Program-made: the position numbers and the translations under genes
Shown here: piece by piece, positions 13,466-19,426 of the stretch
How the letters are laid out: the number at the start of each line of letters is the position of its first letter
Numbering within the stretch: the first letter of the stretch is position 1
Notes under the pieces: model-generated
Databases searched by the model: none
Told to the model about the DNA's origin: nothing
Seen by the model: only the letters and a program-made list of their open reading frames with translations
Source of the DNA: Acidimicrobiia bacterium
GTDB lineage: Bacteria > Actinomycetota > Acidimicrobiia > Acidimicrobiales > SZUA-35
Assembly: GCA_003231975.1 (NCBI GenBank)
Contig: QIKW01000034.1
Span: forward strand, 1-40,476
Direction: 5' to 3'
Length of the DNA stretch: 40,476 bases

Positions 13466-14631
13466 CACAAGACGATCTGGCGGCGCTCATCGCATTACTC
13501 CACGTCAAGACCATCGGCCCAGCCAGGGTGCGCTGGTTGACCGAGCATCAACCGCCGGCAACAGCGGTTGAGAGCCTTCGCGCTGGGCGGGTACCCCCCG
13601 ACGTGGGGCCCGCGCCAAGAGGTGTCAACCAGGAAATGATCTGGGATTGGGCCAAGGCGCTACGGGCAATCGACGGCCACAGCAGGCTTGAGGATCACCA
13701 GAACCAGGGTGTTGAGGTGATGTTCAGAGGCCATCGCCACTGGCCCTTTCATGATGACCCCGATCCGCCCTCGCTGATCTTTGCCAGCGGCAACCTCGCT
13801 CTGGCTCTGGCGGGAACGCGGGTGGGAATTGTCGGAACCAGGAGGTGCACCAGCATTGGCAGGCAGACAGCCCGCAGGCTTGGGGCCGATCTGGCCGCGA
13901 AGCGAGACGGGTCTGAACAGGTCTCAATCGTCAGTGGGCTGGCGGCAGGAATCGACGCCGAGGCTCATCGCGGAACCTTGGCTGTGGCAGGCCAACCAAT
14001 TGGAGTTGTAGCCAGCGGCCTCGACGTCCCCTACCCCAAAAGCAACAGCGGGCTGTGGGAGGAGGTGGCCAAGGTTGGTCTTCTGATCTCCGAATCGCCC
14101 CTTGGGGTTCGTCCAGAACGATGGAAGTTCCCAGCCCGTAATCGTCTCATCGCCTCGCTTTCACATCTGGTAGTTGTGGTTGAGAGCCACGCCAGCGGTG
14201 GAGCGTTGAGCACCGCAGACGAGGCCGCTAACAGGGGAATCACCGTTGGCGCCGTACCGGGCTCGGTTACCTCAAGCTCGGCTACGGGAACCAACGCCCT
14301 CTTGGCCGACGGCTGCCTCGTGATTCGTGATGCAAACGACGTTCTGGTAGAACTTGGGCTTCCCCTGCTTTCTCGGCCCGAGGCGGCATCGCCAACCGGA
14401 GCGAAGCTGAGAAGCACAAGCGCGCCTGCTGCTGGTCCGCCCAACCCCGAAAGCTTCCCTGCGCCAGATCGCCAGATTCTTGAGGCGGTCCTTCAAGAGC
14501 CGGTGCATCTGGACCACCTACTGCTTTCTTTGGCTGCCAGCCGGTCAGAGATATTTGCCGCAGTACAAAGGCTTACCGAACAGGGCGTTCTGGCCCAGGT
14601 TGGCTCGAGACTTGAGTGGAAACCCAGGTGA
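13462..14631 (+). CDS. dprA: DNA-processing protein DprA
   Basis: Rossmann-fold protein that loads RecA on incoming single-stranded DNA. 389 aa. The core runs from about residue 105 to 300: VGIVGTRRCTSIGRQTA, VSGLAAGIDAEAHRG, the nucleotide-site loop ISESPLGVRP, FPARNRLIASLSH, and ALLADGC near the end. The C-terminal 55 residues form a winged-helix DprA/DML1 domain (LDHLLLSLAASRSEIFAAVQRL). It is coupled to comM by an ATGA overlap. Length and motifs are normal. Confidence 0.95.
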   Translation: MTQDDLAALIALLHVKTIGPARVRWLTEHQPPATAVESLRAGRVPPDVGPAPRGVNQEMIWDWAKALRAIDGHSRLEDHQNQGVEVMFRGHRHWPFHDDPDPPSLIFASGNLALALAGTRVGIVGTRRCTSIGRQTARRLGADLAAKRDGSEQVSIVSGLAAGIDAEAHRGTLAVAGQPIGVVASGLDVPYPKSNSGLWEEVAKVGLLISESPLGVRPERWKFPARNRLIASLSHLVVVVESHASGGALSTADEAANRGITVGAVPGSVTSSSATGTNALLADGCLVIRDANDVLVELGLPLLSRPEAASPTGAKLRSTSAPAAGPPNPESFPAPDRQILEAVLQEPVHLDHLLLSLAASRSEIFAAVQRLTEQGVLAQVGSRLEWKPR

Positions 14632-14651
14632 TTGCGCCCAATGGTCACGGG

Positions 14652-15836
14652 ATGATCAATCGGAGTCCCCTTAAATCAGCGGATTTCCCGGTACTGTCAT
14701 CTTCGATGGTTACACCGGCGAAAGCGAAGTATCTGGCGGCGTTGGGATTCCAGGCCCGCACCAGCCAGGCCTCAGACGACGCCGATCTTGACGAGCTTTT
14801 AGGCGAAATCGACCCGCTTGGAGATTCCCCAGCCTCGCTGGCTGAAACCCCTGCCTCGCTGGTTGAGGACCCCGACGAGATGTCGTGGCCTACTGCTGGC
14901 GAACCTGCGCTAGCTCCAGATACATCCAGAAAAGAAGATCCAAAAGCTCACTTTGTGTGGTCAAGCTCCGACGGAGAGTGGGAGCGACGGAACCGGGGTT
15001 TATACCTGGTTCCGGAGCCTTCCAACTTCCGAGAACCACACACCTTGGCGGGATCAGTGGCAGAAATCTACAACACAACTGAGCTTGACGACGTCTGGAC
15101 CAGCTATAAGGACGAGCCGTCTCAGAAAGACCGCGATCAGCTGATCGTCTACTACGCACCTCTGGTGAAGTACGTGGCAAGCAGGATCGCAGCAGGTCTT
15201 CCTCAAAACGTCGATCAGGCAGACCTCGTGAGCTACGGGATGTTCGGTCTGATCGATGCGATCACCAAGTTCGACCCAAGCCGCGGTTTCAAGTTTGAAA
15301 CCTACGCCATCTCCCGAATCAAGGGAGCCGTGCTTGACGAGCTTCGTTCGATCGACTGGGTTCCCCGGTCGGTGCGAGCCAAGGCAAAAGCGGTAGAGCG
15401 GGCAATGAGCAAGCTCGAGTCCGAGTTGCATCGAGCGCCAACAGACCAGGAGATCGCAAAGGAGCTTGACCTTTCAACAGATCAGCTGGCAACGATCTAC
15501 AATCAGATCAGTTCACTTGGTCTTGTTGCACTTGACGAAATGCTCTCCTACAACGGGGGAGACAACATCACCTTCGGCGACACCCTCCCAGACCGACAAG
15601 ACGGCCCGGGCGGCGTGTACGAGCGGGTTGAGATGCGTCAGATGCTGGCCGAGGCCATCAACCGCATGGGTGAACGAGAAAAGATCGTCCTCACGCTCTA
15701 CTACTACGAGAACCTCACCCTGGCCGAGATCGGCAAAGTGCTTGGGGTCACCGAGAGCCGGGTGTGCCAGATTCACACCAAGGCCGTCCTTCATCTTCGT
15801 GCTCGGCTTAGCGCAGCAGAGCGAGAGGCCGTCTAA
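14652..15836 (+). CDS. whiG: WhiG/FliA-type RNA polymerase sigma factor with long N-terminal extension
   Basis: Group 3 sigma factor. The core (last 260 residues) closely follows Streptomyces WhiG: LVKYVASRIAAGLP, DLVSYGMFGLIDAI, FKFETYAISRIKGAVLDEL, WVPRSVRAKAKAVE (regions 2-3) and LTLAEIGKVLGVTESRVCQIH (region 4). About 130 residues precede the core, mostly acidic and Pro/Ser-rich, where WhiG usually has about 30. Start choice is open: GTG 14616 (overlapping dprA), ATG 14652 and ATG 14706 are all in frame, and none has a strong ribosome-binding site. Targets are unknown; no flagellar genes are nearby. The order dprA-whiG-M23 gene-rpsB is usual in actinobacteria. Confidence 0.9.
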   Translation: MINRSPLKSADFPVLSSSMVTPAKAKYLAALGFQARTSQASDDADLDELLGEIDPLGDSPASLAETPASLVEDPDEMSWPTAGEPALAPDTSRKEDPKAHFVWSSSDGEWERRNRGLYLVPEPSNFREPHTLAGSVAEIYNTTELDDVWTSYKDEPSQKDRDQLIVYYAPLVKYVASRIAAGLPQNVDQADLVSYGMFGLIDAITKFDPSRGFKFETYAISRIKGAVLDELRSIDWVPRSVRAKAKAVERAMSKLESELHRAPTDQEIAKELDLSTDQLATIYNQISSLGLVALDEMLSYNGGDNITFGDTLPDRQDGPGGVYERVEMRQMLAEAINRMGEREKIVLTLYYYENLTLAEIGKVLGVTESRVCQIHTKAVLHLRARLSAAEREAV

Positions 15837-15900: not shown

Positions 15901-17469
15901 ATGCGGCAGCGTTCGGTATGGCAGCGTTGGGTACAGCAGAGCTTGGCTGCGGCATTGCTTGTGCTGGCGGCATTGCTGGCACTCCAGACGGTTGCAGCCG
16001 CCGAGGCGTGGCGCCAGCCGGTTGATGCTGAGGTCGTTGATCCATTCCGGCCTCCCGCCACACGGTTCGGCCCCGGAAATCGGGGCCTCGAGTACGGCAC
16101 CGTCGGCGGCGAGAACGTCCGTGCGGTTGATGGTGGAAGGGTGGTATTTGCCGGATCGGTGGCAGGTGCGGTCCACGTCGTTGTAGATCATGGCGAGGGC
16201 CTGAAGTCCACGTATGCCTTTCTCAGAACCGCTGCCGTTGTCAGAGGCCAAACGGTTGCAAAGGGTCAACAAATCGGGACGGCAGCAGCAGGCTTTCACC
16301 TAACGGCCCGCCTCGGCGGCGTTTACGTTGATCCGCGGCTGCTGTTCCTTGGCGCCGAGGTTGAGGTGGCCCTGGTAGCTGGGCAAGGCCCGCAACTACC
16401 CCAACAACTACCACGCGAGCTGCCCAACGCGGAACCACTTGAGGCGGTTGCCGATGCCGTTGGAGACCTTGGCTTCAGCGCCCAGATCGACGCGCTGGCC
16501 GGTGCCACGCGTGCCTGGTATCGCACAGACTGCACGGCTGACAGCGCGAACATCTCGCCCCTCGACGGATCTCTGCCTGGCGAGGGGCGCACCCTGATTC
16601 AGGTTGGCGGGCTTGGGTCAAGCAGTGAGGAAGCCTCAATTGGCGGATTGGACTACCAGGCGTTGGGCTACGCAGATTCCGACGTGGTTGGTTTCAGCTA
16701 TGCGGGTGGCTGCATCGCCCGGCCGTTCGGATCGGGCGAGTCTCAGATCAAAGGGGCAGGCGGCGAGCCTTCTCCCTCGTCCTATGAGGCAGACGACACC
16801 TATCAGAGCATTGAGGTCTCAGCCGTTCGGCTGGCCGACCTGGTTGAGGGCGTAGCCCAGGCCAGGCCTGGGAAGCCCATTGACATTGCGGCTCACAGCC
16901 TTGGGGGAGTGGTAACGCGGCGAGCTCTCGAAATTCTCGCCGACCGCAGCCCCAACGGTGTGCCGGTGGATGTAGTTATTACGATCGGCTCACCCCATGG
17001 CGGCGCCGATCTGGCAACCACTGTGGCAGCCACACCAGGCGACGGACTCGTTGGCACGGCATTGGACTACGTACTGGGCGACAACAGCAACCTACGTGAT
17101 GCCCAATCGGTTCTGGAGTTGGCCGAGGCCGGCGGCTTTGAGCTTGCCCCACCACGCCCGCCGCCGGACGGGGTGCGGGTTGTTGCAGTGGCTGGGGGCA
17201 CAGACTTGATTGTGTCAGCCGAACAAGCCATTTGGGACGGCGCGGTAAACGTGCTGGTGCCAACCAGCGTGGTTGGCCCAACCCGAGTTCACAGCGAACT
17301 TCCGGCCCGAGACGAAGTTGAACGGGAGTTCGCTCTTGCCCTAACCGGTCGGGCCCCCCGGTGCGTTGCCCTCGGCTCGGTTCTGGCTTCAGTGGCCGGA
17401 GGCCGGTTCATTTCGGCATCCGAAGACTCCATCACGGTGGTTGCGGGTGTGCTCAACTGGATACTTTGA
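15901..17469 (+). CDS. Secreted fusion: degenerate LytM/M23 domain plus alpha/beta hydrolase
   Basis: 522 aa, exported (hydrophobic signal about 12-34, ending VAAAEA). Residues 40-150 form a LytM/M23 domain recognisable by order (RAVDGGRVVFAG, VVVDHGEGLKSTYAFL, VAKGQQIGTA, YVDP). The zinc-site residues are replaced: HRGxD reads NRGLE (N60, E64), the YAHL histidine is F107, and HxH reads HLT (133-135). From about 225 an alpha/beta-hydrolase domain follows: IQVGGLGSS, nucleophile elbow AHSLGG (Ser333), likely acid Asp435 (GGTDLIV) and His464 (RVHSE). It probably acts in the envelope as a lipase or esterase, with the M23 part as a binding module (inference). ATG with GAGAGG 6 bases before. It occupies the place of the M23 gene that neighbours rpsB in other actinobacteria. 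Confidence 0.85.
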   Translation: MRQRSVWQRWVQQSLAAALLVLAALLALQTVAAAEAWRQPVDAEVVDPFRPPATRFGPGNRGLEYGTVGGENVRAVDGGRVVFAGSVAGAVHVVVDHGEGLKSTYAFLRTAAVVRGQTVAKGQQIGTAAAGFHLTARLGGVYVDPRLLFLGAEVEVALVAGQGPQLPQQLPRELPNAEPLEAVADAVGDLGFSAQIDALAGATRAWYRTDCTADSANISPLDGSLPGEGRTLIQVGGLGSSSEEASIGGLDYQALGYADSDVVGFSYAGGCIARPFGSGESQIKGAGGEPSPSSYEADDTYQSIEVSAVRLADLVEGVAQARPGKPIDIAAHSLGGVVTRRALEILADRSPNGVPVDVVITIGSPHGGADLATTVAATPGDGLVGTALDYVLGDNSNLRDAQSVLELAEAGGFELAPPRPPPDGVRVVAVAGGTDLIVSAEQAIWDGAVNVLVPTSVVGPTRVHSELPARDEVEREFALALTGRAPRCVALGSVLASVAGGRFISASEDSITVVAGVLNWIL

Positions 17470-17519
17470 ACCAACGACAGGAGGGCTGGATTGCGGATCG
17501 GCCCCCTACACTGTTGCCT

Positions 17520-17568
17520 GCCGGATAGTCCGGCTCGAAACTTAACTACGGCCCGTGGGATTCCACGG
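17520..17568 (+). promoter_or_regulatory. Paired hairpins in the rpsB leader
   Basis: GCCGGA-TAG-TCCGGC (17520-17534) and CCGTGG-GATT-CCACGG (17553-17568) are perfect 6-bp stem-loops in the 161-bp leader before rpsB. TACACT at 17507-17512 could be the -10 box placing both in the 5' UTR. S2 autoregulates its own mRNA in some bacteria, so a leader element is plausible here; the structure does not match one I can name. Confidence 0.4.
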
Positions 17569-17630
17569 TCACCTCGGCAGCCTCGCTTCCGTTGTGCGCC
17601 ATTGGCCGCTCTTCAACCGGAGGAAATAAC

Positions 17631-18644
17631 GTGACTGCTGTTGTCACCCTTAAGCAATTGCTCGAAGCCGGTGTGCATTTTGGCCACCAGACTCGCCGTT
17701 GGAACCCCAAGATGAAGAGGTTCATCCACGGTGATCGGGGAGGCGTCTACGTCATCGATCTGCTTCAGACACTGAAGAGGATCGAGACCGCGTACATCTT
17801 CGTTCGAGACACGGTGGCCGAAGGCGGCACCGTGCTTTTTGTTGGAACAAAGAAACAGGCCCAGGAACCAATCAAGCGTTACGCGCTTTCGGTTGGCATG
17901 CCCTATGTAGACCAACGATGGCTGGGTGGGATGCTCACCAACTACCAAACCATCTCGAAGCGGGTTAGCAAGCTGATCGAGTACGAGCGAATGCGCTCTG
18001 CCGGAGACTTCGATCAGATGCCAAAGAAAGAAGCCCTGCGTTACACCAGAGAGCTCGACAAGCTCGACCGCAACATCGGCGGCATCAAAACCATGGGCAA
18101 GCAGCCAGCCGCGGTGTTTGTGATGGACACGATCAAAGAACACATCGCTGTCACTGAGGCCAGGAAGCTGAACATTCCAATCGTTGCTGTTGTTGACACA
18201 AACTGTGATCCCGATCTGATCACGTTTCCAATTCCAGGAAACGACGATGCAATCCGATCGGCCAGCCTTATTACGCGGGTTATCTCAGAAGCGGTGGCTG
18301 AGGGAAAGCTGATGCACGCCCAGAAGACCGGCGTGCCAGACACCCCGGCCGAGCGCTCAACCGAAGAGCAAGCTGTGGTTGAAGCCCAGCAAGCCGACGC
18401 CCGCCGCCAGGCAGCAACAGCCGCCGCCGAGCGCGATGCCCGCGTTGCCGCGGCCAAGGCCGCTTCTGAAGCAGCTGCTGCCACCCAGCCAGCGGCAGAA
18501 GAAGTTGCCGTCGAGGGTGAGGCTTCTCCCGCCGATTCAGCCGTTGAAGTTGCCGCAGAGGGTGAAGCCGCGGCTGAAGTTGCCGCAGAGGCTGTCGCAA
18601 CCCCAGAAGTGGCCGATGAGGCCACACCGGCTGGAGACACCTGA
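17631..18644 (+). CDS. rpsB: 30S ribosomal protein S2
   Basis: Late-assembling small-subunit protein. 337 aa. Core motifs: [49 protein letters not shown], and [21 protein letters not shown]. After about residue 245 comes a tail of some 90 residues rich in Ala and Glu with repeated [15 protein letters not shown]-type wording, much longer than in E. coli S2. The start is GTG at 17631 with an excellent GGAGG sequence 7 bases before it. tsf follows 2 bases after the stop, the usual partner. Confidence 0.96.
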
Positions 18645-18646
18645 TC

Positions 18647-19426
18647 GTGGCCAACTTCAGCGCGAAAGACGTTCAAGAGCTGCGCAAGGCAACGGGTGCG
18701 GGAATGATGGACGCCAAGAACGCCCTCACCGACGCTGATGGACACGCCGAGGCAGCCGTGCAGATCTTGCGTGAGAAAGGCCTGGCGAAGGCCAGCAAAC
18801 TCAGCTCCAGGGAAAACACTGAGGGGTTGGTGGCAGTCGCCACTAACCAAGCTGCTGTTGCCCTTGTTCACCTCAAGTCAGAAACCGACTTCTCGGCCAA
18901 GTCCAGTGACTTTCAGGACTTCGTGCAGATGCTGGCCGACGAAGTACTGGTGAACGGTGAAGCTGTGGTTGACGAAAAGGATCAGGAGCTTGAAGCCCTA
19001 AAGCTCACGCTGAAGGAGAACATCGAGGTCGGTACAGCCAAGCGCTATCAGGCTTCTGAAGGTTTGGCTCTCGATGCCTACCTACACGGAGCGGGCCGGG
19101 CCGGGGTGCTGATAGAAGCCTCCGGGGTAGAGGCCGACACTCTCCACGAGATCGCCCTGCACGTAGCGTTCGCGAAGCCCACCTACCTCAGCCGAGATCA
19201 GGTGTCGGCCGATGAGGTTGAGCAGGAAAGGGCAGCCCTGCTGGAGATCACAAAGAGCGAGGGCAAACCCGAGGCCGCGTGGGACAAAATCGTTGAGGGC
19301 CGGCTGAACGCCTGGTTCGCCGAAATGGTTCTGTTGGAACAAGGCATTTTTGGAGACAAGGAGAAGGTGGCAGACCGAATTGGTTCTGGTTCCATCTCCC
19401 GCTTCACCCTCGCCATGGTTGGCTGA
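18647..19426 (+). CDS. tsf: Translation elongation factor Ts
   Basis: Guanine-nucleotide exchange factor for EF-Tu. 259 aa. N-terminal UBA-like domain: FSAKDVQELRKATGAGMMDAKNAL, then DGHAEAAVQILREKG. The core has the EF-Tu contact region VHLKSETDFSAKSSDFQDF (TDFVAKN in most species), then the dimerisation-like subdomain. GTG start 2 bases after rpsB, so certainly cotranscribed. Length is normal for actinobacteria. Confidence 0.96.
   Translation: MANFSAKDVQELRKATGAGMMDAKNALTDADGHAEAAVQILREKGLAKASKLSSRENTEGLVAVATNQAAVALVHLKSETDFSAKSSDFQDFVQMLADEVLVNGEAVVDEKDQELEALKLTLKENIEVGTAKRYQASEGLALDAYLHGAGRAGVLIEASGVEADTLHEIALHVAFAKPTYLSRDQVSADEVEQERAALLEITKSEGKPEAAWDKIVEGRLNAWFAEMVLLEQGIFGDKEKVADRIGSGSISRFTLAMVG

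Follow-up and report, generated by a model that had tools for sequence, protein, structure and literature searches.

The gene at positions 15901–17469 of the window (the whole 40,476-nucleotide stretch of Acidimicrobiia DNA analysed here, contig QIKW01000034.1) encodes a 522-residue protein in which a degenerate M23/LytM domain is joined to an alpha/beta hydrolase. Such fusions are ancient and widespread, both in Acidimicrobiia and in some other Actinomycetota. The open reading frame lies on the + strand, as do all features described below, and is 45–55% identical to fused orthologues in the same family. Its coordinates, strand and all seven residues numbered in our first-pass annotation agreed with the sequence and its translation. 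Residues 1–34 (15901–16002) form a putative signal peptide or signal anchor, with a basic start, a hydrophobic stretch and a cleavage-like AAA-EA site, and the predicted structure places a helix at residues 4–29 of this region. The two domains are connected by a linker (residues 154–208; 16360–16524) that showed a mean identity of only 20% in the family comparison and was modelled with pLDDT <50 at residues 157–174 and helices at 177–206. The AF2 model of the protein, for which the alignment consisted of related loci and the window protein only, reached a mean pLDDT of 90.3; given a pTM of 0.70 and the disordered linker, the predicted placement of the domains relative to each other is uncertain.

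The fused gene is flanked by two neighbours that synteny identifies as conserved, a WhiG/FliA-type sigma factor gene upstream (14616–15836; Sigma70 regions 2, 3 and 4) and rpsB, encoding ribosomal protein S2, downstream (17631–18644; PF00318), the latter followed by tsf, encoding EF-Ts (18647–19426; PF00889). As first described, the gene lies beside rpsB: it ends 161 bases before the rpsB start on the same strand, and the order sigma factor–fused gene–rpsB–tsf is conserved in relatives. This adjacency says nothing about function. No Rfam RNA was found within the window, and the leader at 17470–17645 folded no better than shuffled sequences. The window's rpsB has a long Ala/Glu/Val-rich C-terminal extension (18380–18644), with a 30-base repeat at 18546–18622.

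Three lines of evidence agreed on the M23 fold originally proposed for the N-terminal half (residues 34–153; 16000–16359). Pfam matched PF01551 at residues 60–129 (E = 3e-12; 46.9 bits vs a cut-off of 28.7), a profile of 33 relatives searched against the PDB retrieved M23 endopeptidases and EnvC, and this half of the AF2 model matched Csd3, EnvC, DipM, SpoIIQ and ShyA with VIA Z of 17–19. In M23 enzymes the zinc ligands are the Hx3D motif and the second His of HxH, and the catalytic residues are that motif's first His and a further His ~30 residues before it (PMC9662197). In the alignment to 9gy1, the former Hx3D motif reads N60-RGL-E64 (16078–16092), with N60 at ligand 1 (His to Asn) and E64 at ligand 2 (Asp to Glu); F107 (16219–16221) occupies the site of the catalytic His of YxHL, which is lost; and the former HxH reads G131-F-H133 (16291–16299), in which G131 replaces the catalytic first His and H133, the third zinc ligand, is kept. 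H133 was invariant across a 58-row alignment (A2). The register is anchored by R137 and V143-D144-P145, which pair ungapped with the canonical R and VDP, and it places T135 opposite the Glu of 'HFE', which is neither ligand nor catalytic. The first-pass annotation had listed N60, E64, F107 and T135 as replaced zinc residues, which holds for N60 and E64; the alignments to 9gy1 and 6muk, together with the roles given in PMC9662197, excluded F107 (a catalytic site) and T135 as lost ligands. Its term 'pseudo-peptidase' was well chosen: with both catalytic His lost (F107 and G131) and zinc ligands 1 and 2 changed, the M23 half is, judged by its residues, a catalytically dead pseudo-peptidase.

We then compared these positions across relatives. 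Both catalytic His occurred together in none of 212 sequences (a set that includes 31 solo M23 genes away from rpsB, possible paralogues), which argues that the rpsB-side M23 neighbours of other actinobacteria are not ordinary peptidases either. The contrast first drawn with other actinobacteria, said to keep an M23 peptidase at this locus, is weaker than proposed: the zinc ligands are kept there, but one or, more often, both catalytic His are missing. Inside the window's order, ligand 1 was Asn (107 of 108 sequences), ligand 2 Glu or Asp (100 of 108) and ligand 3 His (101 of 108), whereas outside it ligand 1 was His (103 of 104), ligand 2 Asp (100 of 104) and ligand 3 His (101 of 104). The His-to-Asn change at ligand 1 was confined to the window's order, bar one exception in group f88. 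Within the order the two catalytic positions were mainly F/Y/G and G/R/S/P/T/V. That the altered metal site is itself conserved in the order favours a binding role over drift. Among the solo rpsB-adjacent genes, one group (L286–L290, L293, L294, L312–L314 and L317) kept the three zinc ligands and carried Pro and Cys at the catalytic His sites (YEP/YQP and CxH); going by these residues, its members are probably not peptidases. The second clear M23 protein of the window's genome (G000:C118, locus L320; 468 aa) has an intact HxxxD and, in YxH, the catalytic His, but reads QLH in place of HLH.

The C-terminal half is most likely, as far as its residues and predicted fold indicate, an apparently intact serine hydrolase of the lipase/esterase type. 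The alpha/beta hydrolase domain (residues 209–488, core 229–488; 16525–17364) was assigned by fold Z and by Pfam matches to DUF676, DUF7379 and PGAP1; together with Palm_thioest, these matches are scattered and point to no clear family. The triad consists of Ser333 as nucleophile in AHSLGG (16897–16899; 85 of 86 fusions, the sole gap being a broken gene), Asp435 as acid (17203–17205; 86 of 86) and His464 as base (17290–17292; 86 of 86), and these residues fall in order on the fold, bearing out the complete hydrolase that had been proposed. The Ser-Asp-His triad also holds in the fusions of groups f88 and f96, so that it spans ~100 fusions in three class-level groups. C211 (16531–16533) is the probable disulfide partner of C488 (17362–17364; 99% conserved), as both cysteines are found in nearly all own-class and f88 fusions and both are absent in f96, a pattern of joint presence or absence that fits the expectation for a disulfide. 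The nearest solved folds included the Streptomyces lipase 5h6b, BlEst2 of B. licheniformis, CALB, the phospholipase PlaB and B. subtilis LipA, with Z of ~17 to 5h6b, BlEst2 and CALB. An AxSxG nucleophile elbow marks bacterial lipase family I.4 (LipA type), and this elbow is present here (A331 in 74 of 86 fusions, G in 10 of 86). The usual oxyanion dipeptide, HG, is absent, and the loop reads GGLGS.

Searching the window's genome and 60 relatives gave matches in 55 genomes, and the same architecture was found widely in Acidimicrobiia, where the first-pass annotation had suggested looking for it. The fusion was present in ~100 relatives, mostly in the slot between the sigma factor gene and rpsB, and across the order and class the sigma–rpsB-tsf slot was occupied by the fusion in some genomes and by a solo M23-like gene in others. 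The idea that the attached hydrolase is a novelty of this genome did not survive, as the fusion occurred in ~100 sampled genomes from three class-level groups, and with more than 100 orthologues it is not due to chance. A search of named genomes returned 265 relatives, 80 of which were kept, including Candidatus Microthrix parvicella; these matches came from an alignment query, a single-protein query having given none. In a phylum-wide sample, fusions outside the class were found beside rpsB (f96) or away from it (f88). No cell-wall theme was apparent, as judged by eye, among the neighbours of the f88 fusions away from rpsB. At two f88 loci (L306 and L307, within L299–L308) the flanking frames resemble genes for carbamate kinase, for a permease and for a YgjP-like hydrolase. 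Elsewhere in the phylum, genomes carried a solo gene divergent from rpsB, and the rpsB neighbourhood was retained in other classes in either a one-strand or a divergent arrangement. The window gene qualifies as an orthologue of the actinobacterial M23 gene beside rpsB both by where it lies, with the sigma/dprA side on one flank and rpsB-tsf on the other, and by its M23 similarity. Loci L190, L234, L244 (titled Bifidobacterium breve) and L182 (Acidobacteria) are Acidimicrobiia-like, and their titles look mislabelled.

The orthologues placed in a tree comprised 104 fused and 80 solo genes, and the absence of the hydrolase from ~40% of them implies that it is not essential to the gene's role everywhere. 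Solo genes neighboured fused ones inside single families, and the tree of the M23 half called for at least 25 architecture changes, a far stronger clustering than that of shuffled labels, which needed 60 on average; many of its forks are unresolved, and strong branches force only 3 of these changes. In one solo gene whose nearest relatives are fused (L020), the C-terminal tail resembles the last helix of the fusion, which in the window protein is modelled at residues 491–521 (17371–17466). This tail scored 55 against L003 (shuffled maximum 43) and 40 against L004 (shuffled 33), with weaker or absent resemblance to others, and points to an internal deletion, by which the hydrolase half seems to have been lost in this relative. 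When the hydrolase was searched by tblastn against 89 solo loci, clear remains were found only at a truncated contig end in one genome (L017 = L210). At L217, the place that the hydrolase half takes in relatives, after the solo M23 gene and before rpsB, is filled by ~2.5 kb with unrelated frames. At L148 (genome G047) the fusion is broken and the hydrolase continues in another frame, 201 aa long, that overlaps the first, which reflects a frameshift, a sequencing error or fission. Purifying selection acts on both halves: dN/dS in close pairs was 0.08–0.33 for the M23 half and 0.10–0.54 for the hydrolase, the pseudo-M23 half was the more constrained in most close pairs, and mean identity to the query across the family was 49% and 38%, respectively. 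The persistence of the solo form suggests that the pseudo-LytM half probably carries the older function and that the hydrolase is a dispensable addition in some lineages.

From these observations we propose, with about even confidence, that the protein is a secreted pseudo-LytM binding core, directed at the envelope or at a partner, that carries a serine esterase or lipase. We infer secretion, an envelope location, groove binding, hydrolase activity and the substrate, and the proposal would run as follows. A two-domain protein would be secreted and would reside in the envelope, and its pseudo-LytM domain, the presumed conserved core of an ancient rpsB-side gene, would retain the old LytM substrate groove as a site that binds either the stem peptide of peptidoglycan or a protein partner within the wall machinery. 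The hydrolase, with its CALB/LipA-like core, would be catalytically competent and would attack an ester or lipid at the site where it is kept by the pseudo-LytM domain. M23 proteins that lack part of the catalytic set work mostly via protein-protein contacts (PMC9662197), and peptidoglycan binding in vitro has been shown for RgsM, an M23 protein whose hydrolysis could not be measured (PMC6107284). EnvC and NlpD, the best-studied degenerate LytM domains, act through protein binding (PMC9662197), which makes binding of a partner as likely as binding of the wall. A more speculative extension, to which we give little weight, is that a phylum-wide rpsB-side pseudo-LytM envelope module, no ordinary peptidase in any of the classes sampled, steers or gates a fused lipase in several of them, acting as a wall-sensing pseudo-enzyme that controls a lipid hydrolase.

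Several other readings were weighed against the proposed binding core with its attached esterase or lipase. The protein could instead be an EnvC- or NlpD-like activator of a wall amidase or other hydrolase, with the lipase-like domain in an accessory role, as an anchor or as a modifier of envelope lipid close by. EnvC and DipM are indeed the nearest degenerate folds (Foldseek ranks 1 and 2; Z ~18), the solo pseudo-M23 form is retained without the hydrolase, the pseudo-M23 domain is usually the more constrained of the two, and the genome encodes one Amidase_3 protein; however, the coiled coil of EnvC and the LysM of NlpD are both absent from the sequence, and an amidase gene was not found among the neighbours checked. 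We regard this reading as rather doubtful. It is also conceivable, though in our judgement rather unlikely, that the hydrolase half runs another reaction on envelope polymers, for instance acyl transfer or cleavage of amides. Reactions of this kind do occur on lipase folds, and both the spread of Pfam matches over DUF676, PGAP1, Palm_thioest and DUF7379 and the GGLGS loop in place of the usual HG would fit such an activity, yet the nearest solved structures (5h6b, BlEst2, CALB and LipA) are true lipases or esterases.

We consider it very improbable that the M23 half is a working metalloenzyme, with an atypical metal site of Asn60, Glu64 and His133 and a different general base. Alternative metal ligands were assessed from the alignment, where Asn60, Glu/Asp64 and His133 are co-conserved in the order and the canonical three ligands are kept by most sequences outside it, but both catalytic His are absent here and 0 of the 212 sequences have both. 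An artefactual fusion, through a lost stop, misassembly or a decaying pseudogene, has next to no probability. Its one favourable point is the broken frame at L148, and it was ruled out by a continuous frame in ~100 genomes from independent assemblies and by dN/dS well below 1.

Both halves are known folds, and our search of the open-access literature found no paper describing an M23-lipase fusion; domain databases may well hold such fusions as uncharacterised entries. Degenerate LytM domains have been known chiefly from Gram-negative bacteria, where they regulate peptidoglycan hydrolases. In Acidimicrobiia and other Actinomycetota, such a domain is paired with a lipase that looks intact; among the carriers is Candidatus Microthrix parvicella, a filament that consumes lipids in sewage plants. 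Should the module position or gate this lipase, wall architecture would be tied to the handling of lipids. A further suggestion of the comparison is that the uncharacterised M23 genes next to rpsB in other actinobacteria count as pseudo-enzymes until activity is shown. One of these is presumably Rv2891, which we take to be the rpsB neighbour in M. tuberculosis. A study of the M23 proteins of M. tuberculosis left Rv2891 uncharacterised (PMC8594824).

Among known systems, the window protein shares with EnvC, NlpD, ActS and DipM a LytM fold with missing catalytic residues in a secreted protein, and EnvC and DipM are ~25% identical to its M23 half with Z of ~18. Unlike these proteins, it has no coiled coil or LysM (Pfam found only M23 and the hydrolase), carries a serine hydrolase, sits at the actinobacterial rpsB-side locus and keeps the third zinc ligand. 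SpoIIQ likewise uses a LytM fold in a protein complex (Z 17.9), but is a sporulation channel protein without a hydrolase domain. RgsM of Sinorhizobium is a peptidoglycan-binding M23 protein whose hydrolysis was not measurable (PMC6107284), yet it has the HxxxD motif and no lipase domain, and belongs to a different phylum and growth system. The rpsB-adjacent M23 genes of other Actinomycetota share the locus, are recognisable relatives and lack one or, more often, both catalytic His, whereas they are mostly solo, keep three zinc ligands and are often divergent from rpsB. For the hydrolase half, CALB, LipA, 5h6b and BlEst2 have the same core and Ser-Asp-His triad, and LipA also the AxSxG elbow; the window hydrolase differs from them in its fusion to a pseudo-LytM domain, its identity of ~14–22%, its extra helices and its GGLGS oxyanion loop.
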